Below, in pieces: positions 25,591 through 53,608 of a stretch of DNA of 64,000 bases. Under the pieces are notes generated by a model. That model ran no database searches and was not told the DNA's origin. It was given only the letters and a program-made list of their open reading frames with translations. Position 1 is the first letter of the stretch. Every line of letters starts with the position of its first letter. The stretch spans positions 69,246,674 through 69,310,673 of the forward strand of contig CM026426.1 in NCBI GenBank assembly GCA_014871385.1. Reading direction: 5' to 3'. The position numbers and the translations under genes are program-made. The DNA comes from Ceratodon purpureus. Lineage: Eukaryota; Streptophyta; Bryopsida; Pseudoditrichales; Ditrichaceae.

Positions 25591-26178
25591 CTATCTACGT
25601 GATGTACGACTATAGTACTCCTTAGATTGTCTACAGTTCCACTGATGGCGCCTCCTCCAAAATCGCCTAGTTTGTTGGACAAGGCACAGCAAAATTGCCG
25701 GAAGGGCGAAGACCACATGGGTTGGCCTCCTCACCCTAATAGGCGAGAAAGGAGACGGTGGAAACATAGGCGGTGAGCCCTGTAGAGGAGACGTGGGCAT
25801 GTAGCCCGGGGACGTAAGCTCATACACTAGGGATGTAGGCATGTAGACTGTAGACGTAGGCATGTACTATGGAGAGTGGACCTCGAAAGGTCCACTTTCC
25901 ACACCTACAAGGTTTGCTACATCACAGGTACAATAAGGCTGATGAAAGGAATTTGAGAGGTCACAAATGCTTATCACTGAGATGGGAGAAGTGGCGGACA
26001 TCTCAGGAGCATCGGATGATACCTATAGTAGAAGAAATTAAGAGAACGTTAAATTCCAATTTTATAAGAGTAGTAAAAAAAGAGTATTACAGAGAGAACA
26101 TAACTCTATAAAAATGTGAAATCCATGTTCATTGTGAAACTAATGAAATACCTCAATCACTGCTAGCGTCGGCTCATG
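25591..26178 (-). pseudogene. CTD-heptad-like small protein, outer copy
   Basis: The heptads YMPTSTV, YMPTSLV, YELTSPG and YMPTSPL are followed by a conserved C-terminal block (HVVFALPAIL, QTRRFWRRRHQW). The frame continues upstream through a TAG at 25869-25867 that replaces the CAG of the inner copy (SPQYMPTS). The position of the short 5' exon is recognisable by its GAG|GT donor near 26150, but it contains stops. Broken relative to the copy at 39872-40487. Confidence 0.6.
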
Positions 26179-26309
26179 ACGTTCGCTCCCCAAGTTATCT
26201 TCATCCGATTCGTTAATCAAAAACAAGGTAATGAGTATTAGAAAAAACAGCAACTATCAAGACTCAAATTTCACTTATTCAAATTAAAGTAATAACAAAC
26301 CACAACCAC

Positions 26310-29300
26310 CATCAGCACACCCCATTAATTTGAGCCTCTGCCTTAGCATCTTTCACAAAATCCCGAAGACCATCACAAGGTCCCCCGCTTATTGTCGTTG
26401 ACGATAGTAGGCTCGCGGCCAAGCAAATAAATAAATTATAAAAAAAAAACCCTCCCAGCCCCAAGTTGCATTTTCAGAGAAGGGTCCCAAACAATAACAA
26501 GTCGACCGACGAGCAAAGCAAAGAGTATTTAACAGGACAACATAAGCTTAATATACAAAAAAAAACAAGCAATAAGTGTAAGGCATCATCGGCCGACCCC
26601 ATTGATGGGAGCCTCCGCCTCAGCATCTTTTACAAAATCCCGGAAACCATCAGAAGGACCCGGGCTACAGTCATTGACGACAGTAGGCTTGGGGCCAAGC
26701 AAATAAATAAATTATAAAAAAAAAAACCCTCCCAGCCCCAAGGAGGAGCATTAGTGAAGGGTTCCAAACAATAACAAGCAGCTGACGAGCAAGGCAAAGA
26801 GTATTTAACTGGATAGCATAAGCTAAATATAAAAAAAAAGAAAACAAGCAATAAGTGTAAGGCATCATCGGCCCACCCCATTGAGAGGAGCCTCCGCCTT
26901 AGCATCTTTCACAAAATCCCGGAAACCTTCACAAGGTTCCTGGCCTACTGTCGTTGACGACTGTAGGCTTGGGGCCAAGCAAATAAATAAATTATAAAAA
27001 AGAAACCCCTCCCAGCCCCAAGCAGAAACTTCAGTGAAGGGTCCTAAACAATAACAAGTCGGCCGACGAGCAAGGCAAAGAGTATTTAACTCGATAGCAT
27101 AAGCTTAATATACAAAAAAAACGAGCAATAAGTGTAAGGTACATCGGCCCACCCCATTGAAGGGAGCCTTCGCCTTAGCATCTTTCACAAAATCGCGAAA
27201 ACCAGCACAAGGTCCCCGGCCTACCCTTGGGGCTAAGGGCTCCACGGTGGGGGGCCAACGCCCCACCTGCCTGACCCTAAGGATTTTCCTCCCCAGCCCG
27301 AATTGGAGCCCTGTGAGAGGCCCATGCGAGACTTGCGACCTGCAACCTTGGAGCCTGGGCCTGGGCGACGCTGCGAGCAGTCCTCAGTCCGGACCCTCTC
27401 TGACGTGTCTGATTTGTAATAGCTCGTTTAAACGTAGTTATACTGTGACCCTAGACCCATTAAATTTGTAGATGCATTCCAAATTCAATTTGTATTCTAA
27501 TTACCACCAAAAAAGCGTGTTCTGATTTTTAAGGAATAAAAGAAGTTCTGCAACTCAACTAGGCTGGAATTGAGTTTTGTTGTTTTAAGTTGATATATTA
27601 ATAGTGTACTATCCTGTCCTACGGCGTTGCCGCAGTAGTTCCCTACGACGAAACGGCGTCTTAGGGTTGATGACTTCTTAGTCGAATATTTTCCATCCTC
27701 TTTGGGTTGATGACATGTTTTGGGAACTAAATCCTAAACCCTAAACCCTAAAACCCTAAACATGTCATAAACCCAACGAGGATGGAGAATATTCGACATA
27801 GGAGTCATCAACCCTAAGACGTCGTTTCGCCGTAGGGAACTACTGCGGCAACGCCGTAGGACAGGATAGTACACTATTAATAAATCAACTTAAAACAACA
27901 AAACTCAATTCTAGCCTAGTTGAGTTGCAGAACTTCTTTTATTCCTTAACAATCAGAACACGCTTTTTTGGTGGTAATTAGAATACAAATTGTACTTGGA
28001 ATGCATCTACAAATTTAATGGGTCTAAGGTCACAATATCGGGCATGGGGACAAAGTGCCACAGTGACAAAAAGGCAGAGAGGGTCGGGACTGGGACTGCT
28101 CGCAGCCTTGCCCGGGCCCAGGCTCCAAGGTCGCAGGTCGAGCATGGGCCTCTCACAGGGCTCCAATTCGGGCTGGAAAGAAGTAAGGGAGGTGGGGCGT
28201 CGGCCCCCACCGTCGAGCCCTTAGCCCCGAGGCGGGCCTACTATCCTTAACGTCAGTAGGCTAGGGGCCAAGCAAAAAAATAAATTAAAAAAAGAAACCC
28301 CTCCTAGCCCCAAGCAGCAGCATCAGTGAAGGGTTCTAAACAATAACAACTCAGCCGACCAGCAAGGCAAAGAGTATTTAAGTGCATAGCCTAAGCTCAA
28401 TATACAAAAAAAAAAACAAGCAATAAGTGTAAGGCATCATCGGCCCATCCCATTGAGGGGAGCCTCCGCCTTAGCATCTTTCACAAAATCCCGGAAACCA
28501 TCACACGGTCCCCGGCCTACTCTCATTGACAATACTAGGCTTAATGCCAAGCAAATGAATAAATTAAAATAAAGTAACCCTCCCAGCCCCAAGCAACAGC
28601 ATCAGTGAAGGGTCCCAAACAATAACAAGTCCGACGACAAGCAAGGCAAAGACTCTTTAACTGGATAGCATAAGCTTTAAAAAAAAAAAAAAAAAAACAA
28701 GCAATAAGTGTAAGGCATCATCGGCCCACCCCATTGAGGGAAGCCTCCGCCTTAGCATCTTTCACAAAATCGCGAAATCCATCACAAGGTCCCTGGCCTA
28801 CTCTCATTGACCACAGTAGGCTTGTAGCCAAGCAAATAAATAAATTAAAAAAAAAAAACCCCTCCCCGCCTCAAGTTGCAGCATCAGTGAAGGTCCCAAA
28901 CAATAACAAGTTGGCCCTCGAGCAAGGCAAAGAGTATTTAACTGGATAGCATAAACTTAATATACAAAAAAAAAAAAAAAAAAACAAGTAATAAGTGTAA
29001 GGCATCATGTGCGGCGTGCCCACCCGATTGACGGGAGCTTCCGCCTTAGCACCTTTCACAAAATCCTGGAATCCATCACAAGGTCCCCGGCCTACTGTCG
29101 TTGAGAATAGTACGCTTCAGGCGAAGCAAATAAGTAAATAAAAAAAAGAAAACCCTCCCTACCCCTAGCAGCAGCATCAGTGAAGGGTCCCTAACAATAA
29201 CAAGTCGGTCGACGAGCAAGGCATAGAGTATTTAACTGGATTGGATAAGCTTAATATACAAAAAAAAAAAAACAAGCAATAAGTGTAAGGCATCATCGGC

Positions 29301-30897
29301 CCACCCCATTGAGGGACGCTTCTCCCTTAATATCTTTCACAAAATCCCAGGAACCATCACATGGTCCCCGGCTTACTCTCATTGCTGACTGTAGGCTTAG
29401 GGCCAAGCAAATAAATAAATTAAAAAAAAAAAACCCCTCCCAACCCCATGTTGCAGCATCAGTGAAGGGTCCCAAACAAAACCAAGTCGGCCAACGAGCA
29501 AGGCAAAGAGTATTTAACAGGATAACATAAGCTTAATATACAAAAAAAAAGAAAAAAGCAATAAGTGTAAGGCATCATCGGCCCACCCCATTGAGAGGAG
29601 CCTCCGCCTTAGCATCTTTCACAAAATCCTGAAAACCATCACAAGCTCCCCGGCCTACTATCGTTGACGACAATAGGCTTAAGGCCAAGCAAATAAATAA
29701 ATTAAAATAAAAAAACCCTCCCACCCCCAACCAGCAGCATCATAGAAGGGTCTCAAACAATAACAAGTCAGACGACAAGCAAGGCAAAAAGTATTTAATT
29801 GGATAGCATAAGCTTAATATACAAAAAAAGAAAACAAGCAATAAGTGTAAGGCATCATAGACCCACCCCAATGAGGGGAGCCTCTGCCTTAATATCTTTC
29901 ACAAAATCCCGAAAACCATCACAAGGTCCCTGGCCAACTGTCGATGACGACAGTAGGCTTGGGGCCTAGCAAATAAATAAATTAAAAAAAAGAAAACCCA
30001 CCGAGCCACAAGCACCACCATTTGTGAAGGGTCTCAAAGAATAACAAGTCAGACGACAAGCAAGGCAAAGAGTATTTAACAAGATAGCATAAGCTTAATA
30101 TACAAAAAAAGAAAACAAGCAATAAGTGTAAGGCATCATCGGCCTACCCCAATGAGGGGAGCCTCTGCCTTAATATCTTTCACAAAATCTCGAAAACCAT
30201 CACAAGGTCCCTGGCCTACTGTCGTTGAGAATAGTAGGCTTCAGGCCTTGCAAATAAATTAATAAAAATAAAAAGCCGTCCCCGCCCCAAGCAGCACCAT
30301 CAGTGAAGGGTCCCAAACAATAACAAGTCGGTTGACGGGCAAGGCAAAGAGTATTTAACTGGATAGCATAAGCTTAATATACAAAAAAAAAAAAACAAGC
30401 AATAAGTGTAAGGCATCATCGGCCCACCCCATTGAGGGGAGCCTCCGCCTTAGCATCTCTCACAAAATCTGAGAAACCATCACAAGGTCTTCGGCCTATT
30501 GTCGTTGACGACAGTAGCCTTGAGGCCAAGCAAATAAATAAATTAAAATAAAGAAACCCTCCCAGCCCCAAGCAGCAGCATCAGTGAAGGGTCTCAAACA
30601 ATAACAAGTCGGCCGATGAGCAAGGCAACGAGTATTTAACTGGATAGTATAAGCTTAATATACAAAAAAAAAAAAAAAAACAAGGAATAAGTGTAAGGCA
30701 TCATCGGCCCACCCCATTGAGGGGAGACTCCGCCTTAGCATCTTTCACAAAATATTAGAAACCATCACAAGGTCCCCGGCCTGTTGTCGTTGACGACAGT
30801 AGCCTTGAGGCCAAGCAAATAAATTAATTAAAATAAAAAACCCCTCCCAGCCCCAAGCAGCAGGATCAGTGAAGGGTCCCAAGCAATAATAAGTCGG
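26310..30897. repeat. Satellite array A, about 280-bp unit, about 13 copies
   Basis: The unit begins around GGCATCATCGGCCCACCCCA, recurring near 26583, 26862, 27137, 28434, 28713, 29004, 29288, 29572, 29850, 30130, 30414 and 30700. Each unit holds an imperfect hairpin with arms CCTACTGTCG / CGACAGTAGG around TTGA, then an AAATAAATAAATTAAAA tract and a poly-A tract. Copies differ by several percent and by poly-A length. The array is interrupted by a foldback element at 27225-28232. Open frames inside it are shadows. It sits just upstream of the outer methyltransferase/CTD genes. Confidence 0.92.
27225..28232. mobile_element. Foldback element with about 480-bp inverted arms and telomere-like loop
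   Basis: The left arm 27225-27721 and right arm 27758-28232 are inverted copies. The outer ends read CCTTGGGGCTAAGGGCTC on the left and the near-complement on the right. The short loop (about 27733-27760) is CCCTAAA repeats. The flanks CCGGCCTAC (27216-27224) and CGGGCCTAC (28233-28241) form a 9-bp target duplication with one mismatch, as for Mutator-like elements. The insertion point is inside the hairpin of one satellite unit. It contains no gene. Confidence 0.85.
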
Positions 30898-30902
30898 CAC
30901 AC

Positions 30903-33043
<2,141 letters not shown>

Positions 33044-33483
33044 CAGTTTAGAGAGACAATCTTCGTCTGATTGTGAATGCCTCTCCCTTGAGCGGGAATC
33101 CTTCTTCCCAAACGAAGGCTGCGGGGACTCTACTCTTTGACTACAATTATATCTAAATCTTCCATCTGCTCCTCACGTAGTACCCCACTACAAGGTATCT
33201 CGTGCTCCTGATTTGCAACTCCACTGTCTTCCAAGATCTCTTCCTTTACCTCAACTATACTGTCTAGAATGAGTTTTCGAATGCTACAAAACTTCAAGGC
33301 TACAGTCAGACCCGCTCCTCTCCTCTTCACGGGTGCACTCAAGTTATCACCTTTCAAATCTACCTTCTTACGTGATGCTCTCCTCTTTCTCGCTCTCCTA
33401 TTCGTGAAATCTGTCTTACATGGTTTTCTTTTCGGTTTAGGAGTGACATAAGTGGAGGGAGTAGACCCTCCACTATCCTTCAT
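33044..33483 (-). pseudogene. Basic nuclear-type protein, outer copy
   Basis: ATG at 33483-33481. The frame has STYVTPKPKRKP, TDFTNRRARKRRASRKKVD, LSAPVKRRG and LKFCSIRKLILDSIVE, matching the inner copy at 44568-44996. A frameshift before the end of the exon leads to a stop at 33130, whereas the original frame (SQRVESPQPSF) continues to the conserved donor CTG|GTAAGT at 33044. The cluster of Arg/Lys is nuclear-localisation-like. Function unknown. Confidence 0.6.
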
Positions 33484-34063
33484 GTGTCTAACTAACGAGA
33501 GAACTCTCCTCACATTATAGCTCTCCTTCTAACTTCCCTTCTTCTTATATATCCGAAACCTTCAACCCCTCTGACTTAGCCCTAACTATTTACCTTATGC
33601 TTAACCTACTTAAATTAATGAAAACTATAAATCATTGCAATTTGAATTAAAACTGATGAGATCAATCTATATTGGAAGAAGAACAAAGATTTGAATTAAG
33701 CACTTCGAAACTTGTTTTAAATATGGAAGCAACAGACGGCTCACTCTAATCTTATCAAACTTCACATCAAATATAATCGGTTCCACGATTCAAATATTAA
33801 ATGCGTAGTTCTAAAAACTCCTACATAATATACTTGGCCCTGCAAAATGCTGCATTCTAATTAGTTAGCGCCATCTCTCTTTAATCATACATTCGTTACC
33901 TAACAGAATGAATTATTATCTAGACGTCCACATGGTCATTCCAACTTGAATAAAATGATCAACAGCGATGCATCATTCCTCTCACTTTGCTCTCGCGATA
34001 CTGCTTTGCTAGAACACTCACTCTCCTCCTCTATCCGCTAGAACGATTTAGTTCTCTGCAAAC
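33484..34063. promoter_or_regulatory. Divergent promoter region, outer copy
   Basis: The interval between the minus-strand basic gene and the plus-strand transposase start (ATG 34064). Blocks such as GTTAGCGCCATCTCTCTTTA and GATGCATCATTCCTCTCACT are also present in the inner element's equivalent at 44997-45632. That is the basis for calling a shared bidirectional promoter. Confidence 0.5.
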
Positions 34064-34068
34064 ATGGG

Positions 34069-34078
34069 GATGGTCTGT
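34069..34078 (+). other. Left target-site duplication of inner element
   Basis: GATGGTCTGT lies directly before the inner element's left end and recurs directly after its right end at 50980-50989. It comprises codons 2-5 (partly) of the outer transposase gene, whose ATG is at 34064. Its length is 9 or 10 bp depending on where the repeat is taken to start. Confidence 0.9.
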
Positions 34079-34206
34079 GGGGAAAGTTCGTACGTGAGCG
34101 GAGAGCGTAGAGCGGAGAGCGGTGAGCGCAGAATGGAGAGCACAGAATTGAAAATTAGGAAAATTTCCAAAAGCAAAGTAGACCCTATAACCGTGGAAAA
34201 TTACTA
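34079..34206 (+). repeat. Left terminal inverted repeat of inner element
   Basis: GGGGAAAGTTCG, TACGTGAGCGGAGAGCG, further heptamers, GAATGGAGAGCACAGAATT, and then GACCCTATAACCGTGG near 34190. It pairs with 50765-50979 and resembles 20192-20330. Confidence 0.88.
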
Positions 34207-34320
34207 AATTTATGCTTAATTTTGATACTTTTTTTAGAAAAAGAGTATATTACCGTGGAAATTAGGGTTATCTCTGGTAAGAATTTATTACGTTTGTTCT
34301 CTAAGATACAAATTAGGGCT

Positions 34321-34342
34321 GATGTCATGATGACGTCATGCA
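34321..34342. promoter_or_regulatory. Conserved TGATGACGTCA box, inner copy
   Basis: Same block as at 20419-20440, at the same distance from the element end. A bZIP-type palindrome core is visible; regulatory role inferred. Confidence 0.35.
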
Positions 34343-34803
34343 TACATTCCTTTAGATTTGTCATGGGTTTAGGCAAGATACAATGATCAGGCGTTAGGTT
34401 TTAGATCAAACACATAATTCTTTCATAGGATTATGTAAATGCACAAGGAAAAAAACAAATATCACAGAACATAAAGGAGGCAAGGTTTGAAAACTTCCTA
34501 GAATATTTCAAAATTCGTGTATAATATCTTGACTGCTGAAACCAAGATATACCTTGTCAGAGTCCTTGTCTTCATCGAAGATTACTCTCTCTTCCTAGGC
34601 AGCAAAGCATCTTCATTTGAGTGATAGAAGTAGGAGATTTTCATCATGAAACAACACTTGGTAAGCTGGGTTCCAGAGAAGGAGGTCACTCTTGGTTTCA
34701 TGAGCTTGTCTCTAGGTGGCGTATTTGGATAGTGACACAGTCCTTGGCATGCTGTGCTGTATGCGAAGGTAGCGTATGAGTTCGGGGATGTCAATATGCA
34801 AGC

Positions 34804-35220
34804 TTGAGTGTAACGTTTGAAGACTACAAGAATTCAGTGTGTTGCGCGATGCCGAAGGTGTGTAATGCGAGATCCAGGAGGACGAGAGCGGCTGTAGGTT
34901 TGCCCCCAAAGGCACCGGCGAGTTATGAGGAGCTGCGGCCGTGGCTGCTGGAGGTGGAGCGCGCCAGGGAACGAGGCATGGACCTGCCACCGTTTAGGCA
35001 CATCGGAAACCTCCATGTTGGTGAAGGTGAATGGCGTTGGACAGTGCTTTGTACCAATGAGCTTCTCCGTATTATGGAGTTGTCCCTAATCCCGTATCCC
35101 TTGCTATCGAACGTCGATGAGAATCCAGTTGTTCAGCTGCCCGAAGTGATCATATCGGATGGCGAAACTTGCTGGTTTGATATGGACAAGAGTTGGACTA
35201 TATATCATTCGAAGGATTAG
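34804..35220 (+). CDS. ORF in the F-box-like position of the inner element
   Basis: A frame of about 138 codons, opening before 34804 without a clear ATG. It starts near VTFEDYKNSV (the outer copy has VITFEDVESA at the corresponding place) and ends with NELLRIMELSLIPYP and DETCWFD-like residues. These resemble the C-terminal part of the 16218 and 20763 proteins (LRTLL..., then GIWVS). The middle is rich in Arg/Glu/Pro and is not alignable by eye. It is probably a diverged or rearranged relative, possibly non-functional. Confidence 0.35.
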   Translation: MSVTFEDYKNSVCCAMPKVCNARSRRTRAAVGLPPKAPASYEELRPWLLEVERARERGMDLPPFRHIGNLHVGEGEWRWTVLCTNELLRIMELSLIPYPLLSNVDENPVVQLPEVIISDGETCWFDMDKSWTIYHSKD

Positions 35221-35734
35221 TACCGTGAAGTCTAGTGGGGTGTTCGAATACAATCCTTAAGATTTGGTCTTTTATTGGATCTAGATACGAGTATTCCAGC
35301 ATGATGGTTTTAGATAATATAGATGATTCTAGAAATAAGAGAACTGGAAACCAACTAAAACAAAGGGTCTTAAAAGTTCGTGGAATATTTCAGAGTTCGT
35401 GTACAATACTGGAGTAGCAGAAACCAAGATGAACACCAAGTCAAGAATAGGTAACATGGCTTTGTAAATGTGGGATTTTGAATGAGTAAAATATAAGTTA
35501 CAGCGCAATTTAAATTTTGAGCATTTCTTTTGTAACATTTCATTCTTCATATTATATTTTGAGCATTACGGTTGTGACATTTCATCCTCTACATAGGAGG
35601 AGACGATTTGGAAATGAGATTCGTAACAAGTACAGATTCAGGGTAGTAGAGTAGACGAAGGATTACGCAATGAACTCCAATTAAATCAAATCAAATCCAA
35701 TGAAAACAATGAAAGACCGAAGCCTCCTTCAAAC

Positions 35735-38700
35735 TCAGAAAATGCTACCATCGCTACTTCCACTCTCAGAACTAGATGACTCTGAATCTCCTTCTACCGC
35801 CTCGTCATCGACGAATAGAAGGGCCCTGGGATCAAAAGTAATTGGCCGACTTGGAACATATGTTAGGGCTCCAGATTGAAACGCCTGTGCTAAGTCCTCT
35901 GCGTAGTCCGGAAGTATGAAAGGCTGAATCGGGCTGGAATGAAGACGCCACGATGGAGTGGACACTGCTCTTGGCCCACGTGGCGGTGTTGCTGAAACTA
36001 CTCTGCAATAGAGAACCGATTGTGGTTAGATAGAGTACGTAGAGCTGGAAAGAGAAGTAATGATTGGATAATTTGAACAAAGAATAGAAGACTTACTCCA
36101 CTTGGAAGGTCTTGCTCTCTTAGGAGGCGCTTCGCCTGCTGCTGCCGGCCTTGGATGTTTAGGAGGACCCATGGCTGATGGTTTGAGAAGGGCGTTGAAT
36201 ATGGCTTCGTCCTCCTCAAAAGCGAGAATGTGACGACCAACAGCCTGGGCGGCCTTGATGGAGGCCCCTGAAACTCGAAGAGAAACAAAGAAATGAGAAA
36301 CTTTGGAAAAAACGAGAGGAAAAATGAAGCAGAGATATGTAAGAAGAGTTACCTGTCCCAGCATTCCAGTCAACAACTATGTCGCCGGGCTTGGACAGCT
36401 CCTCAATGATGCTCTGCATCATCTCAGGGGATTTCTCCCTTGGGCCTCTCCACGGCACCTCCCCATTCATGAGCTGAGATTCCGCATCGGTGAAGTTGAA
36501 AATGGCATCACTCTTGGTAATGTTGAGGAGCCCATGTATCAGGTCTTCCTTCTTCGTCTGGAAGGAGAAAGTACTGCCTCTACGAACGTAGACGCGAATC
36601 CAGAATCGCATAGTCTGCAGTCAAGCAAAACTAGTGAGTAAAATGAAGCGGAAGGGTTATCAGTAAGCGAAGAGAAGGGCATGTTCAGGAAAAGTACCAA
36701 GTTCTCGGGGTTCGTAGGAGAAGTCAGGCCGAGTACATTGACACCCCACCAGTCCTTGAACAGCACGTATCCACCAGCAGCAGCTTCTTCCTCGATATCC
36801 TTAGCCAGCTTCTGATCAGTGTTGTAGATGAGGCAGATGGCACCATCTTTCTGCAGGAATTCATCTGCAAAATGGAAGATGTCGTACAAATAATCCTTGT
36901 AGCGAGAGTTCCAAGGCGGAATACTCGTGGGAGGAACGGAAACGGATGGGACGGGAAGATTCTCAGGAATGTCGGCAATGATCAAGTCGACTCCCAGATG
37001 GTTCTCTTCTTTGCACCGGTCCGGAACTTCGTTTTCGCGGCCTGCTCCAAACTTGAGCAAACAAGAAAGGAGAGTTAGTAACTACATAGTGAGTAGAGGT
37101 GGCAGAATCCATTAAATGTCGAAATATAGGAACAAACCTTGCGAATGAAGTCTTGAGTCTTGATCCAATCCGGGTCGCCACCTTTTATCTCCTGTCTCCT
37201 ATTTCGCCGTAACATGGAATCCACAAATGAGTTGAAGACGGAAACATGTGTGGAAATCGAAGCTCCAGCGGAAGAAGTTGGTTGAGGATATAGTTTGGCC
37301 TTCCTCTGCTCAATGAGACTTCGCGTGATCGCAGAAGCACCAATGGATGAAGGCGCAGTCGCTGTGGTCGACGTTGGCATTGGGACGTCTACAGTTGGAG
37401 AAGCGTTGCCCGTCTCCTTCCCTGGTGAGGAAGACTCAGCCCCAGTATCTTGTGAGGTCTGTGACTTCGAACCCAGTGTTCGCAGTCGCCGAGCTCTCCC
37501 TTTCTTCGGTTGAGGTGCAGATGATTGACTTTGATGTTCTTCGTCTTCTTCAGAACCGTCGTTGGAGTCTCCGACTACTGGTGCTCGAAGATCAAGTGAT
37601 GATTTGACATCGGCCTCAGAATCGACTGTAAAACCACGGAGGCAATCTAGATACCAACATCCTGCCTCCAAGTGGGGAGCTTTGTACCTCTTCAATTGCT
37701 GAGCAGAGTAGATACACTCGTCCGTGCCTCTCTGGATCCATAAAGGAAAGTACTTCGGGAGTTGGTGGACAGTGACGGCTCCTTTGGGAAGAAGCTCTCT
37801 CTTGAAGTACCTAATGTGGGCCAATTTTAAAATACTTAGTATGTGGGAGAGACGAAATGCAGGATTCGAAATGCACACATGTTTGAGAAAAGATTCATAC
37901 CGGTAAATGACTCGCTTGACAACATCTACCGTTCCAGGGAATTTCGTGAAAATCGACTTCTTATCAAAAGTCTTCTTCGCCTTGGATCCAAGGAATGCCG
38001 GGAATGCTCTGTCCCAAAGCAGAATACGCCAGCTCTCCACGTAATCGCGTGGTCGCTGAACATCAGGGGAGGCATTCCAATTGATGTCCAGCTCCTCAGA
38101 CTTACACATGTTCTCGAACTCTTGGATGACCGCTTCTTCCAACTACAAGAGACAGTCAGCAGAATTAGACTACAACAATCAAAGTGATACAATGACAAAG
38201 ACATTATCAGTTCTGGAAATAAGGGAGCATACCCCTGCCCAGAATGAAGCCCTGTTTAGCCAACGGTCGAGGTCAGCTTCCTTGAACTCCGGTGGTGGGA
38301 ACCTATAAGACTGCCTTGAAGTCGGAGAGGAGTTCCACCACCTCAACCAACGAGCTTTGTACTTGGGTTCCACTGCCGCCGGCACAATCTTCTGCAGCTT
38401 GTCCAATGTCATCTCAGGTTTGTTGAGATCGCTGAAGTGGCGGTTAATCTGCATTTAGAACAGAACTGTTAGCATTATGAAATGAAGATATCATAGGAGA
38501 TAAGAACAAAATAGCTTAAGATGAAGTGATTAAGGATTCACCTCGGCAAGGAAGTCGTCACCATTTTTGGGATTCGCAATGGCCAAGTACTTGGTGAAGT
38601 CCTTCTTCTTGACGGCCTCAATGTAGTTGTTTGACGCTGTCGTCATCGCATCCCACACTCCAGATCCAGATTGATCGTCTATTGGCGTGTTCTCCTTGTA

Positions 38701-39732
38701 GGCTCTTGCGGCCTGATCCGAGGCGACTGCAATCTCTCTCTGTACATGGAGATACAATATGTTAAAATCAATGTACAAACCACTTGAAATGCATTACTTA
38801 AAGTATATGGATCAGACGAATGTACTTGCTGAGTCATGGTATAAATTCTTACTCGGTATAGGAACGCAATGAAAACCTTTGTTGTCAAGGTGAACCATCG
38901 GTCCTTTGCGTGTTTATTCTGCACACAGATTTCAAACTCTTCGGGGCTTAGAAGATCTTTGAATTCTTCTAACTTCATGACACCGAAAGAGCGGATGCGG
39001 AATAACTTCGCTGGAAGATTACTCTTCACATGGTCATTCTCAGTAGACCTGTGGACAAAATAAACAGTTTAGAAAACACATCATAATAGAAGGATGATCC
39101 GAAATCAAAATTGAAAAATTGTTCCACCAAAATTCTTACCAGTTGATGTCGTGCATGGCATGGAGAAGATTGCCCACTTGGCCGCGGGGGTCCAATATGA
39201 TGCAATGCACGGAGATGTGCCAAGCTGGGTCGTCGGCATGATGCTTGTTGATGTGCCGTAACCAAGCTGAAAGGCGATGGTTACCTTCCCATACAAAAAA
39301 CATTTTGCCACTGAATTGATTGAGGTCATCGTCTAAACCTAGGTCGGCTTCGAAGGCTTCGTTAGCCCTACGCCAGCACGGGCTCCACTTTGCCTTCACT
39401 TCCTCCGTGACATCCATTGACACCTCTTCAGTGTTGAACATGGAAATGTACATCACGCGGTCCCCATCTCTGTAGCCCTTCACGAACTCCCTCTCCAGAT
39501 GTTGCACGCCCATTTCGCCAACCGGTCTGACTTTTGCCATTGCGACCATTCTACACAATGGGACCAGCAGGCGAGACTTCCTCAAGGGCTGAATACGAAC
39601 GGCATTGATGACGTTGATCGAGTCAACTTTATGCTGTGTTCGATGAAGCAGTTCCCCTTCAAGAGCGTCTTTCAAGTCCAAAGGCTTTGATGATGATGGC
39701 AACACGTCCTGTGTTTGCGTCAACTCGGGTAC
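35735..39732 (-). CDS. ParB-like domain fused to beta-class DNA methyltransferase-like domain, ten exons, open
   Basis: Exons (minus): 39732-39140, 39048-38853, 38739-38542, 38448-38233, 38142-37901, 37810-37138, 37051-36698, 36614-36353, 36267-36097, 36000-35735. All junctions are GT-AG, every phase agrees, and the sum is 1,057 codons with one terminal stop. Residue numbers count from 39732. WEGNHRLSAW (148-157), with an upstream VRPVGEMGVQHLE segment, resembles the ParB/sulfiredoxin nucleotide-binding core. LIIADIPEN (730-738) sits where N4/N6-MTases have motif IV DPPY. GDIVVDWNAGTGAS (about 901-914) followed by RHILAFEEDEAIF fits motifs I and II. Motif IV before motif I is the beta-class order. 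The region between is unrecognised, with a Ser/Arg/Pro-rich linker around 560-660. The tail is acidic (DSESSSSESGSSD). The true 5' exon is unresolved; the frame at 39732 needs a phase-0 upstream exon. The DPPY change makes catalysis uncertain. Confidence 0.75.
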
Positions 39733-39871
39733 CTGCCGTAAGGAATGGAAAGGAACAATCAAACACAACAATGTAGATACTGAGAAATGGAATTTACCAA
39801 CCACATAGAGATTTTCTCATAAATGAAAGAGTAAAAAAAAACATCTCAAATTTCATCTATAGCACCAAGAA

Positions 39872-40487
39872 TCAAGGCCGTGCCACTCTACGAGGAGCCC
39901 TTCCATAGTACTGTCTAGCCTCTCTACTATTCCAATGATGGCGCCTCCTCCAAAATCGCCTGGTCTGACGGCAAGCGCTGGGCAGTATTGCCGGAAGGGC
40001 AAACACTACATGGGCTGGCCTCCTCAACACCAAAGGTGAAACTGGGGGATTAGGCGAAGACGGCGGTGTGCCAAGACGTGGAGAGGTGGGCATGTACACT
40101 GGAGAGGTGGGCATGTACACAGGAGAGGTGGGCTCATAAACAGGCGAAGTAGGCATGTACTGGGGTGACTGGACCTCGAAAGGTCCAGTGTCTACACCTA
40201 AAGGAATGGCTATATCACAGGTACAAAGACGCTCATCCTCTGGGTCTGACAGGTCTGAAAGGTTTATGACAGAGATTGGAGAATTGACAGACATGTCGGG
40301 AGCATCAGAGCCTACCTGCGAGTACAAGGCACATGAGGAAGTTAGAGTTTTCAAATCATTTGAAAGAACTTTAAGAAGCTCAACTTCAATTATTTCGGAA
40401 ATGAAGAACATGCGTATCCAACTAATATAACATCAAAAACTATACCTCAGTCTCCTCAGGTCCCTTGCTTTCACTCTCGGTCCCCAT
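39872..40487 (-). CDS. Small protein with RNA polymerase II CTD-like heptads
   Basis: Exon 1, 40487-40446 (MGTESESKGPEETE), ends at GAG|GTATAG. Exon 2 starts at 40315 after TCGCAG, phase 0, and runs to a stop at 39872, giving about 162 aa. After an acidic N-terminus come four heptads, YMPTSPV, YEPTSPV, YMPTSPV and YMPTSPR, matching the YSPTSPS pattern at Y1, P3, T4, S5 and P6 but not S2. A basic C-terminal block (RPAHVVFALPAILP, RFWRRRHHW) is conserved in the outer copy. It is immediately upstream of the ParB-methyltransferase exons (140 bp) on the same strand. It could be a separate gene or, with an unrecognised internal donor, the 5' part of the same one. The heptads may attract CTD-binding factors, which is inference. 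Confidence 0.55.
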
Positions 40488-40561
40488 GTTCTGCTGTGAA
40501 GTATCCTATACGTCATAGAAAATGCACTGATGTCGTTAATTAAAATCATTCTCTCCCGCGA

Positions 40562-43469
40562 GCAAAATAATGAAGTTAAAAAGCAAAAAAAAAAACAAAA
40601 CAAAATTGAATGAGGCCGCGGCACTCGTGTCTGCTCCGAAAGCAGACACGGTGCCGACTCATTCGAATTGGATTAAATTAAAAAAATAATAATGAGAGCC
40701 TCATGGAAGGCATAGAGCCATCTCGGCCTGGTTCAGTATCAACTATTAAAGCACTCATGAGGTTCCCCATACTCCCAGGTACCCAAACTCCCACTTGAAT
40801 CCAACCAAAATAAAGAAGTTAAAAAGCCAAAAAAAAAAATAAACAAAATTGAATGAGGCCGCGGCACTCGTGTCTGCTCCGAAAGCAGACACGGTGCCGA
40901 CTCATTCGAATTGGATTAAATTAAAAAAATAATAATGAGAGCCTCATCGAAGGCATAGAGCCTTCTCGGCCTGGTTCAGTATCAACTACTAAAGCACTCA
41001 TGAGGTTCCCCACACTCCCAGGTACCCAAACTCCCACTTGAATCCAACCAAAATCAAGAAGTTAAAAAGCCAAAAAAAAAAAATAAACAAAATTGAATGA
41101 GGCCGCGGCACTCGTGTCTGCTCCGAAAGCAGACACGGTGCCGACTCATTCGAATTGGATTAAATTAAAAAAATAATAATGAGAGCCTCATCGAAGGCAT
41201 AGAGCCTTCTCGGCCTGGTTCAGTATCAACTATTAAATCACTTATGAGTTTCCCCACACTCCCAGGTACCCAAACTCCCACTTGAATCCAACCAAAATAA
41301 AGAAGTTCAAAAGCAAAAAAAAAAATAAACAAAATTGAATGAGGCCGCGGCACTCGTGTCTGCTCCGAAAGCAGACACGGTGCCGACTCATTCGAATTGG
41401 ATTAAATTAAAAAAATAATAATGAGAGCCTCATCGAAGGCATAGAGCCTTCTCGGCCTGGTTCAGTATCAACTACTAAAGCACTCATGAGGTTCCCCACA
41501 CTCCCAGGTACCCAAACTCCCACTTGAATCCAACCAAAATCAAGAAGTTAAAAAGCCAAAAAAAAAAAATAAACAAAATTGAATGAGGCCGCGGCACTCG
41601 TGTCTGCTCCGAAAGCAGACACGGTGCGGACTCATTCGAATTGGATTAAATTAAAAAAATAATAATGAGAGCCTCATGGAAGGCATAGAGCCTTCTCGGC
41701 CTGGTTCAGTATCAACTATTAAAGCACTCATGAGATTCCCCACACTCCCAGGTACCCAAACTCCCACTTGTTTCCAACCAAAATAATGAAGTTAAAAAGC
41801 AAAAAAAAAAACAAAACAAAATTGAATGAGGCCGCGGCACTCGTGTCTGCTCCGAAAGCAGACACGGTGCCGACTCATTCGAATTGGATTAAATTAAAAA
41901 AATAATAATGAGAGCCTCATGGAAGGCATAGAGCCATCTCGGCCTGGTTCAGTATCAACTATTAAAGCACTCATGAGGTTCCCCACACTCCCAGGTACCC
42001 AAACTCCCACTTGAATCCAACCAAAATCAAGAAGTTAAAAAGCCAAAAAAAAAAAATAAACAAAATTGAATGAGGCCGCGGCACTCGTGTCTGCTCCGAA
42101 AGCAGACACGGTGCCGACTCATTCGAATTGGATTAAATTAAAAAAATAATAATGAGAGCCTCATCGAAGGCATAGAGCCTTCTCGGCCTGGTTCAGTATC
42201 AACTATTAAATCACTTATGAGTTTCCCCACACTCCCAGGTACCCAAACTCCCACTTGAATCCAACCAAAATAAAGAAGTTCAAAAGCAAAAAAAAAAATA
42301 AACAAAATTGAATGAGGCCGCGGCACTCGTGTCTGCTCCGAAAGCAGACACGGTGCGGACTCATTCGAATTGGATTAAATTAAAAAAATAATAATGAGAG
42401 CCTCATCGAAGGCATAGAGCCTTCTCGGCCTGGTTCAGTATCAACTATTAAATCACTTATGAGTTTCCCCACACTCCCAGGTACCCAAACTCCCACTTGA
42501 ATCCAACCAAAATAAAGAAGTTCAAAAGCAAAAAAAAAATAAACAAAATTGAATGAGGCCGCGGCACTCGTGTCTGCTCCGAAAGCAGACACGGTGCCGA
42601 CTCATTCGAATTGGATTAAATTAAAAAAATAATAATGAGAGCCTCATCGAAGGCATAGAGCCTTCTCGGCCTGGTTCAGTATCAACTATTAAATCACTTA
42701 TGAGGTTCCCGACACTTCTAGGTACCCAAACTCCCACTTGAATCCAACCAAAATCAAGAAGTTAAAAAGCCAAAAAAAAAAAATAAACAAAATTGAATGA
42801 GGCCGCGGCACTCGTGTCTGCTCCGAAAGCAGACACGGTGCCGACTCATTCGAATTGGATTAAATTAAAAAAATAATAATGAGAGCCTCATCGAAGGCAT
42901 AGAGCCTTCTCGGCCTGGTTCAGTATCAACTACTAAAGCACTCATGAGGTTCCCCACACTCCCAGGTACCCAAACTCCCACTTGAATCCAACCAAAATCA
43001 AGAAGTTAAAAAGCCAAAAAAAAAAAATAAACAAAATTGAATGAGGCCGCGGCACTCGTGTCTGCTCCGAAAGCAGACACGGTGCGGACTCATTCGAATT
43101 GGATTAAATTAAAAAAATAATAATGAGAGCCTCATCGAAGGCATAGAGCCTTCTCGGCCTGGTTCAGTATCAACTATTAAAGCACTCATGAGGTTCCCCA
43201 CACTCCCAGGTACCCAAACTCCCACTTGAATCCAACCAAAATCAAGAAGTTAAAAAGCCAAAAAAAAAAAATAAACAAAATTGAATGAGGCCGCGGCACT
43301 CGTGTCTGCTCCGAAAGCAGACACGGTGCGGACTCATTCGAATTGGATTAAATTAAAAAAATAATAATGAGAGCCTCATGGAAGGCATAGAGCCTTCTCG
43401 GCCTGGTTCAGTATCAACTATTAAAGCACTCATGAGGTTCCCCACACTCCCAGGTACCCAAACTCCCAA
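40562..43469. repeat. Satellite array B, about 243-bp unit, 12 copies
   Basis: Units start near GAATGAGGCCGCGGCACTCG at 40608, 40850, 41094, 41336, 41581, 41825, 42068, 42310, 42552, 42796, 43040 and 43282. Each contains a strong hairpin (stem GTGTCTGCT / AGCAGACAC, loop CCGAA) extended outward by GAATGAG / CTCATTC arms. An A/T-rich TTAAATTAAAAAAATAATAA block follows, and then a poly-A tract. Copies are almost identical, so amplification is recent. Variant sites (CCGACTC/CGGACTC, catGGAAGG/catCGAAGG, AAAGCACTCATGAG/AAATCACTTATGAG) are shared among non-adjacent units. Open frames within it are shadows. Confidence 0.96.
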
Positions 43470-44567
43470 CTTAAATCCGAGCACTCAAATGAATCCGAGT
43501 TGCGCACAGCAAACCCGAACCCAATATTCACCCTGAGCAAGCAGCATATGTGGTCCTCAAGATTGAAGTCTCAATCCCAATTGTCCAACACAATCCCCAA
43601 CACACACGCCTTAACACACATCACAGACGAAAGAAGTTCCGAAATCCGATTTTCAAATCCCCAAGTTGCGAATCTTCATCAAACACAAGTATTTCCAGAA
43701 TCCAACTTCCCCACACAACCCGGCAACCACGGGACCCGAACCCCCAACATAAAGAACCTTCAATGCGCAACATTCTAATCCTCGAATCTTCCCATCACTC
43801 AAGAGCCGCGAATACCCAATACTTAAGATAAACCCAAAAAACTTCGAATCCCCAAGCAAACCCATCAAACCTTAGCACCCAGCAAGCAGACTCACAATTT
43901 CCAAGCACCCAAGCACCCTGCAATCTCACAACATTTCCCCACAAACTCCCAACAAGCTTTGAACAAGTAGTTAAACCAAACAGCAAAGCTCGCCTACCTC
44001 GTCGTCTTCGTCGTCGTCGTCGTCGCCTACCTCGAGCTGGCCGTCGACCTGGTCCGCTTGCTCAACTTCGAGCTGGCCGTCGACCTCGTCCGCTTGCTCA
44101 ACTCCGAGCTGGTCCTGAAGCTCTTCTCTCCCATCAACGTCGCCGACCTGCGCGGCAGGGGCAATCTGCTCATCATCACCATCGCCGCGGCCTCCCAGAT
44201 TCACCTCTGCCAGCGCAGCCATAGCTCTCCCTCCCACTCCTGCTGCTAAGATGCTTTGCCTGGCTCTCCTCGCTTCGACTCGGAGTTGTTCCAGTTCATT
44301 GCACTCTCCAACCCGATCCCCGACCCCTCTCAACCACATTGTACTCTGTATAAAAATAGCTTGAATTTGAATCCATGGATGGATGGCGCGGCCCCTCTCT
44401 TTGAGACATATGCTCAGACTGTGTCAAGTGCCGCGGCCCCTCTCACTGAGACTTACAGCAAACCTCACTCCCTTCAATCAAACTAATTAATGAACAGCGT
44501 TTCACTAATATAGTCTATAATTCATAATTCACAATAGCGTGGTTCTCGACGGATTAGAAATACTTAC
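43470..44567. other. Interval between satellite array B and basic gene
   Basis: C/A-rich sequence to about 43980, then a G/C-rich stretch (43985-44260) open on the minus strand with Asp/Glu-rich and LEVEQADEVDGQ-type repeats. A simple GTCGTC run lies near 44003-44028. There is no recognisable domain and coding status is doubtful. It corresponds to 31586-33043 in the outer copy. Confidence 0.4.
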
Positions 44568-44996
44568 CTTATCTGATTGAGAATCAGGCTCCCCTGTTGA
44601 GAACTCATTGAATGAAATCGATGGTTGCGGAGACTCTAGTTTCTGACTACAATTAAAGACTAATTCTTCCGTCATGGCCTCCCGTGCTCCTCTACTTAAA
44701 TGTACAACCTGTTCCTGCTCGTGATTCTCGACGTCCGTGTTCTCTAATAATTCCTCTTTCTCCTCTACTATAGAATCGAGAATGAGTTTGCGAAGGCTAC
44801 AAAACTTCAAAGCTACAGGCAGATCTCCTCCTCTCCGTTTCACGGGTGCACTCAAATGGTCACTTTTAGAATCTACCTGCTTACGTGATGCTCTCCTCTT
44901 TCTAGCTCTTCTATTTGTAAAATCAGTGCGGCCAGGTTTCCTTCTCTGTTTAGGAGTAACATAAGTGGAGGGAGATGGCCCTCCACTCTGCTTCAT
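44568..44996 (-). CDS. Basic nuclear-type protein exon, inner copy
   Basis: ATG at 44996-44994. 143 codons lead to a strong donor (AAG|GTAAGTA at 44568/44567), phase 0. The peptide has PSTYVTPKQRRKPGRTDFT, NRRARKRRASRKQ (a bipartite NLS-like cluster), SAPVKRRGG and an acidic Glu-rich second half (EEKEELLE). The outer copy preserves the same blocks. The downstream exon is not identified. A phase-0 acceptor exists at 40315 (CTD-heptad exon), which would place the satellite array inside an intron; an undetected nearer exon is the alternative. It is divergent from the transposase start by 636 bp. I do not recognise the family. Confidence 0.55.
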
Positions 44997-45632
44997 GTGT
45001 CTAACCAAAGGAAGGACTCTCTCACAAAAAGACTTTCATGAAAACTTCTCCCTGCTTAAATACCTCTCACGTACAACTATTCTCCTAGAACCCTAAGTTG
45101 ATATACAATCTCAACAACTGACACATTGTCTGCCCACTTTATATTAAGAATATCATTAACAATTCTATAATTGAAGCTAGATTTTAAATATCAACCTTTA
45201 ATTATAAGGAATATATCTAAGTGCACTTTATATTGAAAGATTTGAATCAAGCACTTCAATCATGCTCCTTTTTATATTCATTGTTTTAAATGTAGAATTA
45301 AAATGACGGCTCATTCTAATCTTATAATACATCATGTCAAATAGAATCCGCTCTACGATTCAAATTTTAAAGTAGAGTTCAATAAACCTTACCTCATATA
45401 CTTAGACCTGCAAAAAGTGGCACTGTAATTAGTTAGCGCCGTCTCTCTTAAATCATACATTCGTTACCTAACAGACAGCATCATTCCCCAACTCTTCACA
45501 TGGACATTCCAACGTGAATAAAATGATCATCAACGATGCATCATTCCTCTCACTTTGCTCTCGCGATAGCGCTTGGCTGATACACTCACTCTCCTCCCTT
45601 CTTCCACTAGTATCACTGAGTTGCCTGCGAAC
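44997..45632. promoter_or_regulatory. Divergent promoter region, inner copy
   Basis: A/T-rich interval between the basic gene and the transposase ATG at 45633. It shares blocks with 33484-34063 (GTTAGCGCC.TCTCTCTTAAA, ATGCATCATTCCTCTCACTT). A single regulatory region probably serves both genes. Confidence 0.5.
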
Positions 45633-48600
45633 ATGGGGATGGTCTGTCTGTACGCCCAAGGCATGGGCATCCCTCTTAGGTTTCGCGTAGATGACGATGG
45701 TCTAGCTACGGTGTCCTCTCTTCGCCTCAGTCTCAGATTCCATTTCCGTGAAGATTCCATCAGTATAGAGGAGGAGATGTTTGATGACGTTACTGCCGAG
45801 GTTACCCACACCCTCGGGCAACCTTCAGTGAGAGATGAGAACAACATGTTGCAGTGGAGACTCCTCCCTGGATCCTATAGAGTCTATGGTCTTACTGATT
45901 CTCTGATGGCTGCATCCACTGAGATCCTCACCCCCCGTCGCTCTTCTACTTGCACAATTCAGACTCCTTTACCTCATGATGTCAAAGTCAAAGTCGAGCC
46001 TGGTACCGAGACTTCAGATGTAGAGAAACCTCCTCCGACCGTCATATCTCTCTCTTCTGATGACGAAGTCAGTCCCGTCAAGTTGGTGCCTAAGGTCCAC
46101 GCAGATGCTCCTCCTTCCAATGTGTCTCCTCCATTGTCCCAGGTCAGAGTTAGCATTGTTCCGCTCCTTAAAGAGATTGGTAAGACGCGTGGGTCCAAAA
46201 ACATTTTGAAGAAGATAGACTATTCCACTATTAGACACGAGAGAGTTGAGTACTTGCCTGCGAAGTTTGATGGTCTGGTTCTTTTTGAGTTGCCCCCAGC
46301 TGCTGCAGGATCCTCTAAGCTCGCCGCCAAGTCAATGCAGGGAATGGACAAACGATACGATGGACACTTGTGGACGAAGACAATCACAACAAACATCAAA
46401 AACGACTTTGGACTCTCTTTCCGAAGTGCCCTCTGCGACGGATGGCTGCACTGCAGCAACAAGGAGTGTGACTTCCTGAAGCGTGTTCCGAAGATCTTTA
46501 AGGTTAACGAGACTGAGTTCGAAGGGTGTACCGTGCAAGCTTTTCTCATGGATCAGCCTCCTCCATCTGACTCCACGCTAGTGTGCAAGGTATGTAAAGA
46601 ACCTCCATCATGTGTAGCTACATGCGAGGCTAAGATTTATTACGTAGTGGGAAAAGCGAATCAGACTAGAGCTTGTATTCACATAGGAACACATGATCAT
46701 CTAGTGAAAGTTGGAGACTATAGAGACTCTAAAGCAGAGATTAGTAGCTCAATAGAAGAGCAGGTAGAGATGAACAACAAAGCAACGAAGAGCGCCGTTG
46801 TCTTGGAGGCGAGCAAACACCTCATCGGGAGCAATCTGCTACAGCCTGAGGATGCACCACCGAGGAAGCTGACGATGGAGGAGCTGGTTCCTGTTCTGGA
46901 TCGATGCAAAGACATGGCGTCGCCCAACATCCGCAACAAAGTTGCCACCTTCAAAAAATTCGTAAGGTACGGAATCATGGACGGTATCACCAAGCTCCGT
47001 GGTAACAGTCTCTGGGCGTATGTCCAGGAGAATAGGTTTCCTGGTCAGCGATCCATGCGTGACAAAGTCTTTGTCTTCAAGATGTCGGAGGTCGGTCCAG
47101 GCAGTGGTGTCGACTTGGTCAGCCGTATGCAAGCTGGTGGCGATTTGGAGAATGCATGGATCATGTTCGACCATGTCAAACGCGTCAAAGACTGGTCGAC
47201 GATGGCGTGCCATGTGTACGACGCCACCTACTGCCGCGTGATGACAATCGCCACTTGCGACATGCAGTCCGAGGACACGGACGCCCAGCTCGTCTTCTGG
47301 AAAAACCTGAACCTCGTCATGGAGATCAATGGCGTTGCAGCGCCGAACTTCAAGGGGTTCATGGCGGATAACGCACAGGCCAATTGGAATGCAGTGCGGA
47401 TCCTTTACGGCAATGGCAACAAAGAGGACCCAATGGAGGACCGGGAGAGGTCGTGCTTGTTCCACTGGACTCAGAACATGGTGGCGTATACGCAGAAGCA
47501 CTTCCCCGAAGAACTCTGGGAACAGCACAAGAAGATGTGCACTCAGTACAAGAATGCGACCAGCATGGCAGAGGCGGACACTCTGTACGACACGTTGCAA
47601 GCATGGTGGGCATCCACCGGGGTGGTTGGCGAGAGCGGACTTATCAAACTTGATCAGTGGCTGTTATTCTGGCACCACCGCTTCCGGCAATGGGGGGGAT
47701 TCATGACCACGGTATGATTTCTGCACTCTATTTTGATGTTTTTGATACTGGTTTTGTAGCCCTAACCTACAAAACTCTAATCTGTGAATCTAACGGCATC
47801 TACTGTCAAATCTGCAGAAATTCACGAAAGAAGAACTCACAGAGATGCCCACCTGTAACCTCGCCGAAACAGTTCATAACAAGTGGCTCCAAGCTTCAGG
47901 AAACAACGGGAACGACCTGTACGTTGCTACCGTGGACGATTTCGTTCGGGCTTTTCTACAGGTTGTCAACTACTACCAGTTCCTCAAAGGTAGAAGAAGG
48001 AACTCAGGCTTCGGATGGCGGAACGCAACGCGAAGAAATGGGGAAATCCTACACTGCTCGACAAGCCCATGCTCGATATGCCTGGCGCGGATGAGTTCTG
48101 CACCCGTCAGCCTATCATGCCAGGAGCGGAAGTCTTCGGTTCACAGAAGCGAAAAGCCGACGTCCTTATCGGAGCTGACGAAGAGTCTCATCGCCCGGAT
48201 AAGACCAACTTCTCACGCCCAAGAGGCCCAAGACGTGCCGTCAGGGCTCGCCCTATGCAGATGCCCGTCATTGTGGAAGACGACTCCGAACACGACACCG
48301 ACGTACAATGTACCCAACCTCCTGCCCAGGAAGTTGATTCCCCTTTACCTTCACCTGTGAACAAGGGCGGCATTCGCCATGTCAACGCGGTTGAAGAAAC
48401 CAAGGTGGACGTGAAGGAGTGGCACATTTCGAGACTTCACAAACTTTCTGCGAAGTGCTGCTGGGCCCAAAGAGCTGAAACGAAGAAGAAGTGCACTGAG
48501 AGAATCGTGAGGGGGCCCCATTGCACAGCTGCACCGACCTACACTGGGCTCTGGACTAACTATCGCAGGAACCTAGTGGAGAAGACTGAGTTCTTCTTCT

Positions 48601-49289
48601 GCTCCGACGATATCGAGCGCTGCGTGAAAGGCTCTAAGCGCAAGTGGGTAGCACACTACTCAAAGGACCAGGAATTCCCCTCCATTCCAGAGGTGTGGCC
48701 AGTGAAACTAGGTACTAACCTAAAACTTACTGAGATTCTTGCCCTTGAAGCAGCGGGCTTTCAACTTCCGCAGAAGAAACCGGTCTCCCCAAGACGCCTC
48801 TTCTCCTCTGCCCCGCCCCCTGCAAATCTCAGCTCGCTGCCAGTCCCTGCAGACGCTGACCGCTACCCAGGGAAGAGAGACGGCAAGATGGTGAAGCGCA
48901 CTGCCACTCGTCCCAATCAAGCGCAGCGACTCTCCATGGGCTCCTCCGAGTCTCTTAAAGCGCGCCTCCGTTCCGTCACCATGATACCTGAGCCGGGCCA
49001 CGGTTGCATCATTGGGCTGGATTCGGGCGTCGCTCCACACATCACACGGTACCAGATTACCATCAGTTCTTACCCTGGTTGCACTTGCCCAGCATTCAAG
49101 AAGACGATGACTACGTTCCGTGGCAAGACTCTGTTCACGTATTGTAAGCACCTATACTACATACTCTTGAAGGTCTGCAACCGTGATCCCGAAGCGGAGC
49201 TTTTCATCCATGCGCCTACCTTTAGCTTCAACGAGGTCAAGCTTCTCCTAGAGAGTGGAATCTTGCGTCACCCCTTGGCGAAGAAGTAG
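45633..49289 (+). pseudogene. Mutator-like transposase with SWIM zinc finger, inner copy, one 22-bp deletion frameshift
   Basis: Exon 1 45633-47711 (693 codons), donor ACG|GTATGA. Exon 2 starts at 47818 after TCTGCAG. ATG 45633 is chosen because the outer copy has the same MGMVC start. The N-terminus is Ser/Pro-rich and is followed by a Cys-containing region (CSNKECDFLKR, CKVCKEPPSC). The MULE-like DDE core has YDATYC (D about 530), FMADNAQANW (D about 579) and CLFHWTQN (about 608-615). After the frameshift, a SWIM-type C-x-C...C-x-H finger (GCTCPAF...TYCKHLYYI) lies near 49075-49155. Next to the outer copy, exon 2 lacks 22 bp near 47990, so the SWIM half (48015-49289) is out of frame. As read the protein is truncated. 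Confidence 0.82.
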
Positions 49290-49543
49290 GTAGCCCTCCT
49301 ACTTTAGAACTGCCATTTCCACAATGGCCATTTGTCACGTAGTGAATGATTTTAGTAATATCCCATGTACTAAGTCAGCAATATAGAAGCTGTATTGACT
49401 TTTTCATTATATTAAGGGCTTTGTCGTTCACATTAATTGCATTCTATTTCAATACAATCTATCTTGAACAAGTGCACTATATACTTCGTATCCCCTGACA
49501 TGTATCTTTTATTACAGCAAACATATACTTGTTATTAGATGTC

Positions 49544-49996
49544 TCAATCTTCGAACCTAACACGTTTAGGGTTGCCCACTACACTATCAGCAGGACTGCC
49601 AGCCACTGACTGTACTACAGGACAAACTACATTCGCATTCACTTTCGTTCCCACACTTGGAGCGTGTCCTTGGTATGATCGTTTCAGCAATGGCCCACCT
49701 CCCCGCCTCCGATTAACTGATTCCCTGGAATAGGTTCCCCTTGGGATCTTTCCAACCTTCGAGTACGCATGTGGTTGCAAAGGCACATCTGCGTCCTTCT
49801 CTAGCACTCTGATATCATCCGAATTTTCTGAACGTGGAGGGTCAGCTCTTACATCCGGTTGGACGTCAACATTCGTTGTCGAAGGACGCCCTTGGCTGTT
49901 GGCCATCACCTCTTCTTCGTCCTCCACCTCAACATATGGTTGAAATGGACAAACATCGTCAGCAAGTGAAACAACAATATCTCTGACGTCTTCCAT
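49544..49996 (-). CDS. Small acidic/basic accessory protein of the element
   Basis: An ATG-initiated 150-aa frame. The N-terminal third is acidic (VEVEDEEEVMAN), the middle has RSENSDDIRVLEKDADV, and the C-terminal third is basic (RGTYSRESVNRRRGGG). The last 60 codons are also present in the outer copy (53609-53790) before it is cut. It is convergent with the transposase, with 254 bp between their stops. No known domain is recognised; an element-encoded accessory protein is the simplest reading. Confidence 0.45.
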   Translation of the reverse strand: MEDVRDIVVSLADDVCPFQPYVEVEDEEEVMANSQGRPSTTNVDVQPDVRADPPRSENSDDIRVLEKDADVPLQPHAYSKVGKIPRGTYSRESVNRRRGGGPLLKRSYQGHAPSVGTKVNANVVCPVVQSVAGSPADSVVGNPKRVRFED

Positions 49997-50223: not shown

Positions 50224-50259
<36 letters not shown>

Positions 50260-53601: not shown

Positions 53602-53608
53602 ACGCCCT

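Follow-up and report, generated by a model that had tools for sequence, protein, structure and literature searches.

A window of 64,000 nucleotides from Ceratodon purpureus (contig CM026426.1, positions 69,246,674 to 69,310,673; all coordinates below are those of the window) contains two nested transposable elements of one Mutator-like family. The inner element carries a gene whose predicted product combines an N-terminal fold of the ParB/sulfiredoxin type with a C-terminal domain resembling a beta-class amino-methyltransferase (henceforth the ParB-MTase-like gene), and the outer element carries a decayed second copy of it (copy B). We found that GT-AG splicing of the minus strand from 39732 to 35735 yields ten exons with matching phases and 1,056 open codons followed by a stop, which reproduces exactly the gene model of the original prediction, and that an additional 5' exon with an ATG joins in phase to give 1,070 amino acids and a stop. 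Specifically, the correct frame of the coding sequence contains the terminal stop alone, as against 35 and 52 stops in the other two forward frames. A chance open frame was rejected, given that 200 base shuffles of the same sequence contained a mean of 50 stops and each of them at least 32. In the spliced protein the landmark residues are GNHR at 164, motif IV (DIPE) at 747 and motif I at 920, with GNHR and motif IV 583 residues apart; a ParB-like core followed after about 580 residues by methyltransferase motifs in the order IV then I had likewise been predicted. The splice sites and the expression of the gene are predictions from sequence.

The inner element is 16,902 bases long (~16.9 kb); its terminal inverted repeats are long and imperfect and contain many GAGCGGA 7-mers. 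Together with a 9-base target-site duplication (ATGGTCTGT), these repeats are features of Mutator-like elements, and they support the earlier claim that the gene resides in one. The unoccupied target site is visible at 45639, in the element's own (paralogous) transposase, where the sequence is undisturbed because the inner element inserted into the transposase gene of a relative. A search of three open reading frame (ORF) pieces found no match to the Pfam MULE transposase domain at E 10, so the term “Mutator-like” is based on the target-site duplication, the terminal repeats and the overall appearance of the transposase; by eye only, a SWIM-like CxC...CxH stretch was recognised near the end. 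The outer element repeats the order of the inner one (decayed ParB-MTase copy, ORF with repeats like those of the RNA polymerase II C-terminal domain (CTD), tandem array, small ORF, transposase remnant), and from this gene order and the repeats we infer that it is a single element, whose right end was not found.

Predicted domains of the protein

The fold of exon 1 was predicted with AlphaFold from 70 related exons, with a predicted local distance difference test (pLDDT) score of 82. When the predicted N-terminus was compared with the PDB using Foldseek, the matches were individually weak, and the ParB/sulfiredoxin superfamily accounted for 39 of the 50 matches listed, including all of ranks 1–38; in a viral structure library, phage partition proteins formed the top rows (E 1.1e-3). 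GNHR was present in 64 of the 70 rows of exon-1 relatives (one row gapped, five deviating), and the longer GNHRxxA resembles ParB box II. These three points speak against the alternative that the ParB likeness is a mere common alpha/beta arrangement and the N-terminus an unrelated fold, which we regard as very unlikely. GNHR also agrees with GxxR, the phosphate-binding P motif (box II) of the superfamily, as given for ParB-fold proteins in PMC12704722.

The full protein had no match to Pfam PF02195 (ParB) at E 1, nor was this family among the 20 matched by the 70 exon-1 rows, so we assign the N-terminus to the ParB/sulfiredoxin superfamily by fold only and not as a canonical ParB. No Pfam match was found in the protein to the helix-turn-helix or C-terminal dimerisation domains of canonical ParB, the middle part lying outside the fold prediction. 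PHROGs and NCBIfam searches with the 70 exon-1 members returned weak, scattered matches only (one to a ParB-like partition protein, E 0.056, for a single member), and a PDB profile search with exon 1 returned a single, irrelevant ribosomal protein (E 1.1). Neither exon 1 nor its alignment found a relative in viral and GTDB contigs, and exon 1 had no match at E 1 in a phage collection. A whole-protein homolog search scored 7,989 candidates, none of them at E 1, a probable reason being that most database proteins cover a single exon; searches with exons did find relatives, which are many and diverse.

The C-terminus was identified as a beta-class amino-methyltransferase by Pfam PF01555, with 34.2 bits in the full protein (cutoff 26.7) and 38.7 bits for the 262-residue domain alone; the family also matched 4 of 19 related rows at E 0.01, most rows being single exons. 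Motif IV precedes motif I, as in beta-class amino-methyltransferases. In all 15 covering sequences, motif IV reads DIPE, which departs from the catalytic [DSN]PP[YFW] of active DNA amino-methyltransferases, while three phage relatives have D[IVP]PY. The first glycine of the motif I GxG is absent from 2 of 8 covering rows. Considering the uniform DIPE, we do not class the domain as an active methylase; a role in binding or in protein structure is more likely. The altered motif IV suggests a DNA-recognising transposon helper rather than a DNA-marking enzyme.

Selection between the two copies

Copy B keeps the exon order of the gene and contains in-frame stops and frameshifts; an inversion within it (24990–25310) flips the middle of the ParB exon, and part of the exon end is missing. 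Over exons E2–E10 (843 codons), the two copies differ at 183, 123 and 334 sites in codon positions 1, 2 and 3, and the ratio of nonsynonymous to synonymous substitution rates (dN/dS) is 0.21 (bootstrap 0.16–0.26), meaning that the protein was under purifying selection. Given that copy B has decayed and so evolved neutrally for part of the time, the living gene was probably under stronger constraint. Two exon-1 pieces gave 0.11 (48 codons) and 0.10 (91 codons, the inverted piece of copy B), both of them rough values with dS (2.7 and 2.0) near saturation. From exon to exon, dS declines in the 5' to 3' direction, being saturated at E2 and 0.29 at E10, a gradient that points to recombination or conversion close to the end of the element.

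The dN/dS between inner and outer copies was 0.26 (0.15–0.39) for the neighbouring CTD-like ORF, 0.26 (0.18–0.38) for transposase exon 1 and 0.30 (162 codons) for the small basic ORF. The possibility that the gene was never under constraint was rejected on these ratios; the gene is constrained about as much as the transposase, and not more. By contrast, dS was 0.93 for the ParB-MTase-like gene and 0.80 for the small ORF but 0.12 for transposase exon 1, i.e., the transposases are far closer to each other. Their similarity jumps at the insertion point, from 81.7% identity in the upstream flank (349 bases) to 95.1% in the coding part, and a mosaic history of the two elements compared is possible.

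With both folds predicted, one intact copy of 1,056 open codons and a ratio of 0.21, the original prediction of a maintained protein holds: neither a lack of both folds nor a neutral ratio, either of which would have contradicted it, was observed. We consider it highly probable that the domains and the past constraint are as described. Its contrast between an intact gene and broken transposases needs softening: both transposases are indeed broken, but exon 1 of the inner one keeps 693 open codons. The damage to the inner gene is a later frameshift near 47983, a place at which the outer copy is longer by 22 bases; the outer gene is split by the inner element and, relative to inner exon 1, carries a single inserted base and a single stop codon.

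Other features of the two elements

Table 1. Features of the inner and outer elements (window coordinates).
Feature	Position	Strand	Remark
Inner element with GAGCGGA-rich terminal repeats	34079..50980	.	flanking 9-base direct repeat ATGGTCTGT
Target-site duplication (9 bases), left copy	34070..34078	+	ATGGTCTGT
Target-site duplication (9 bases), right copy	50981..50989	+	ATGGTCTGT
Exon E0 with ATG (MGTESESKGPEETE)	40446..40487	-	in phase with E1 and CTD-like ORF; predicted from splice sites
Exon E1, ParB/sulfiredoxin-like fold with GNHR (P motif GxxR)	39140..39732	-	
Exon E2	38853..39048	-	dS saturated, ratio undefined
Exon E3	38542..38739	-	
Exon E4	38233..38448	-	
Exon E5	37901..38142	-	
Exon E6, acidic, Ser-rich, basic linker	37138..37810	-	
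Exon E7, methyltransferase motif IV region	36698..37051	-	ADIPENLPVP
Exon E8, motif X-like and motif I	36353..36614	-	PWRGPREK; DWNAGTG
Exon E9, remainder of motif I helix and motif II strand	36097..36267	-	
Exon E10, C-terminal tail and stop	35735..36000	-	
ORF with four CTD-like heptads (YxPTSPx)	39872..40315	-	147 codons and stop
Inner tandem array, 12 units of ~244 bases	40563..43478	.	palindrome CGTGTCTGCTCCGAAAGCAGACACG in each unit
Second small basic ORF, inner element	44529..45035	-	stop-to-stop frame
Inner transposase gene	45633..49289	+	exon 1 (45633–47711) open; frame-shifted near 47983
Outer element, same family	20192..53792	.	left end ~20192; last shared sequence 53792
Copy B of ParB-MTase-like gene, decayed	21596..25448	-	inverted piece ~25000–25303
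Copy B of CTD-like ORF	25592..26022	-	one in-frame stop
Copy B tandem arrays, 276- and 281-base units	26310..30909	.	partly inverted; different, imperfect palindrome
Outer transposase remnant	50981..53521	+	interrupted by inner element

The heptads of the CTD-like ORF read YMPTSPV, YEPTSPV, YMPTSPV and YMPTSPR, and its match to the Pfam Rpb1 repeat (16.4 bits) falls under the cutoff of 20.3. The two elements share a 22-base palindrome within this ORF (40168–40189 and 25875–25896), whose arms show a paired change. Palindromes with 9-base arms are also kept in both elements within the small ORF (33451–33474 and 44964–44987) and within the transposase intron (47751–47775 and 53097–53121). The outer copy of the small basic ORF has one stop, at codon 3.

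A tandem array adjoins the ParB-MTase-like gene in both elements, with differing sequences. Of 21 inverted repeats in the window (arms of at least 9 bases, loops of up to 8), 12 are the palindromes of the inner array, which are retained in all 12 units. The outer array has a different palindrome (consensus TACTGTCGTTGACGACAGTA), a near-copy of which occurs at 31625, beyond the array, in sequence that looks repetitive. The left-end small ORFs of the two elements also differ (plus strand, 34780–35220, 146 amino acids stop to stop, in the inner element; plus strand, 20763–21221, 152 amino acids, in the outer) and are perhaps captured pieces; a Pfam scan of the inner one found no match. The window also contains a copia gag, a tnp2 transposase (PF02992, 204 bits), a weak match to plant En/Spm that stays below the cutoff and, at 27727, a short telomere-like CTAAACC repeat, all of which are in keeping with a plant host.

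Interpretation and alternatives

The protein may be an accessory of a large family of Mutator-like elements, serving in self-recognition, anti-silencing or transposition help; we give this statement as a whole a probability of about 0.4. The gene would then be a standing component of the element family and not passing cargo, as it had originally been called, a label made doubtful by the same place of the gene in both elements. Its ParB/sulfiredoxin-type nucleotide-binding fold and methyltransferase-like fold would together recognise the element's own DNA, possibly at the neighbouring tandem array with its palindromes, and the protein would help the element to escape silencing or to transpose. 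DNA binding, the array as target and anti-silencing are roles we infer, favoured by the parallel with VANC proteins (see below), whose elements have a similar layout with unrelated protein domains. The inner array is young (97% matches), so retention of its palindrome says little about selection, and in 11 units of the outer array the palindrome columns are conserved at 0.886, compared with 0.874 for 240 other columns, and 126 of 240 windows of equal width are as conserved or more; the outer array therefore neither supports the palindrome as a binding site nor excludes it. In a more specific version, which we think improbable, the protein would be an NTP-switched, ParB-like clamp that loads at the palindromic array, a parS-like self-mark, and spreads along the element, its inactive methyltransferase acting as a DNA reader that blocks silencing. 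If so, array and accessory gene would evolve together as a specificity module and diverge, the transposase remaining shared, as the contrast in dS between the accessory genes and transposase exon 1 would suggest.

That the protein is an active N4-cytosine or N6-adenine DNA methyltransferase marking the element seems rather unlikely to us. Although the profile match, the motif order and the predicted fold are those of the beta class, motif IV retains its D and second P, and the DIPY of one phage relative indicates that the isoleucine alone need not abolish activity, the aromatic position is a glutamate in every covering row and some rows lack the first G of GxG. Moreover, changing SPPY to APPA abolished the activity of the bdelloid N4CMT, two residues being altered in that case (PMC8885841). 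Of the earlier proposal, both folds are supported; that the element encodes its own DNA-modification protein is doubtful. An NTP-regulated factor that nicks or otherwise processes DNA when the element is excised, replicated or repaired is also unlikely, if slightly less so: NTPase or nuclease activity has been reported for ParB-fold domains, a ParB-methylase fusion of Bacillus cereus is a DNA-nicking enzyme (PMC5512222) and GNHR fits the GxxR phosphate motif (PMC12704722), but this protein family offers no evidence of nuclease activity. Finally, the gene could be a captured host gene, a passenger with no role for the element, given that plant transposons capture genes (PMC13317346) and that the left-end small ORFs differ, as captured pieces might. 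The shared place and orientation in both elements, the constraint between element copies and the many, diverse relatives, as in a multi-copy family, leave this alternative with little credibility.

Comparison with known systems

Fusions of ParB with N6_N4-methyltransferases are reported from phages and bacteria (PMC12704722, PMC5512222). Like the present protein, they join a ParB-type fold to a PF01555-type or adenine methyltransferase, often on mobile DNA; it differs from them in the 583 residues between GNHR and motif IV, the introns, the DIPE motif, the eukaryotic DNA transposon as carrier and an exon 1 unmatched in the phage collection. A protein of this group, the Mycobacterium phage Vincenzo DNA methylase (479 amino acids), was among the matches of the viral fold search (E 0.05), and the three phage methylases inspected (242–271 amino acids) are not ParB fusions as far as seen. 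The titles and abstract beginnings retrieved in literature searches describe no ParB-methyltransferase gene in a eukaryotic DNA transposon, and the main text of a ParB-fold survey covering eukaryotes (PMC12704722) contains neither “plant” nor “transpos”.

Other eukaryotic mobile elements encode a DNA-methyltransferase fold (DIRS Dam-like enzymes and the DNMTs of dinoflagellate and charophyte elements; PMC5890265), but the elements concerned are retrotransposons, their enzymes being of the Dam-like adenine or the C5 cytosine type, and “ParB” does not occur in the main text of that paper. The bdelloid rotifer N4CMT, unlike the protein described here, has SPPY and is active, and a Marchantia N4-methylcytosine methyltransferase is reported to modify more than half of the CpG sites; the available text of PMC8885841 describes neither enzyme as transposon-borne.

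DUF1985, the sequence domain of the VANC family, had no Pfam match in the ParB-MTase-like protein. VANC of the Arabidopsis VANDAL elements binds tandem repeats in its own element family and removes methylation, and even related elements soon come to differ in the sequences that it targets (PMC5735166, PMC10398659). Both systems have an accessory gene in a Mutator-like element and fast-diverging, noncoding tandem repeats within that element; no domain shared by the two was found, and the function of VANC is experimentally established whereas that of the present protein is deduced. By analogy, the protein most likely works like VANC without being a member of its family. If this is true, a ParB-type switch and a degenerate DNA methyltransferase in a plant-type DNA transposon would make up a new set of components with which transposons recognise themselves or counter silencing, with the palindromic array as a directly testable target, and ParB-methyltransferase fusions would extend from phages and bacteria to a eukaryotic DNA transposon.
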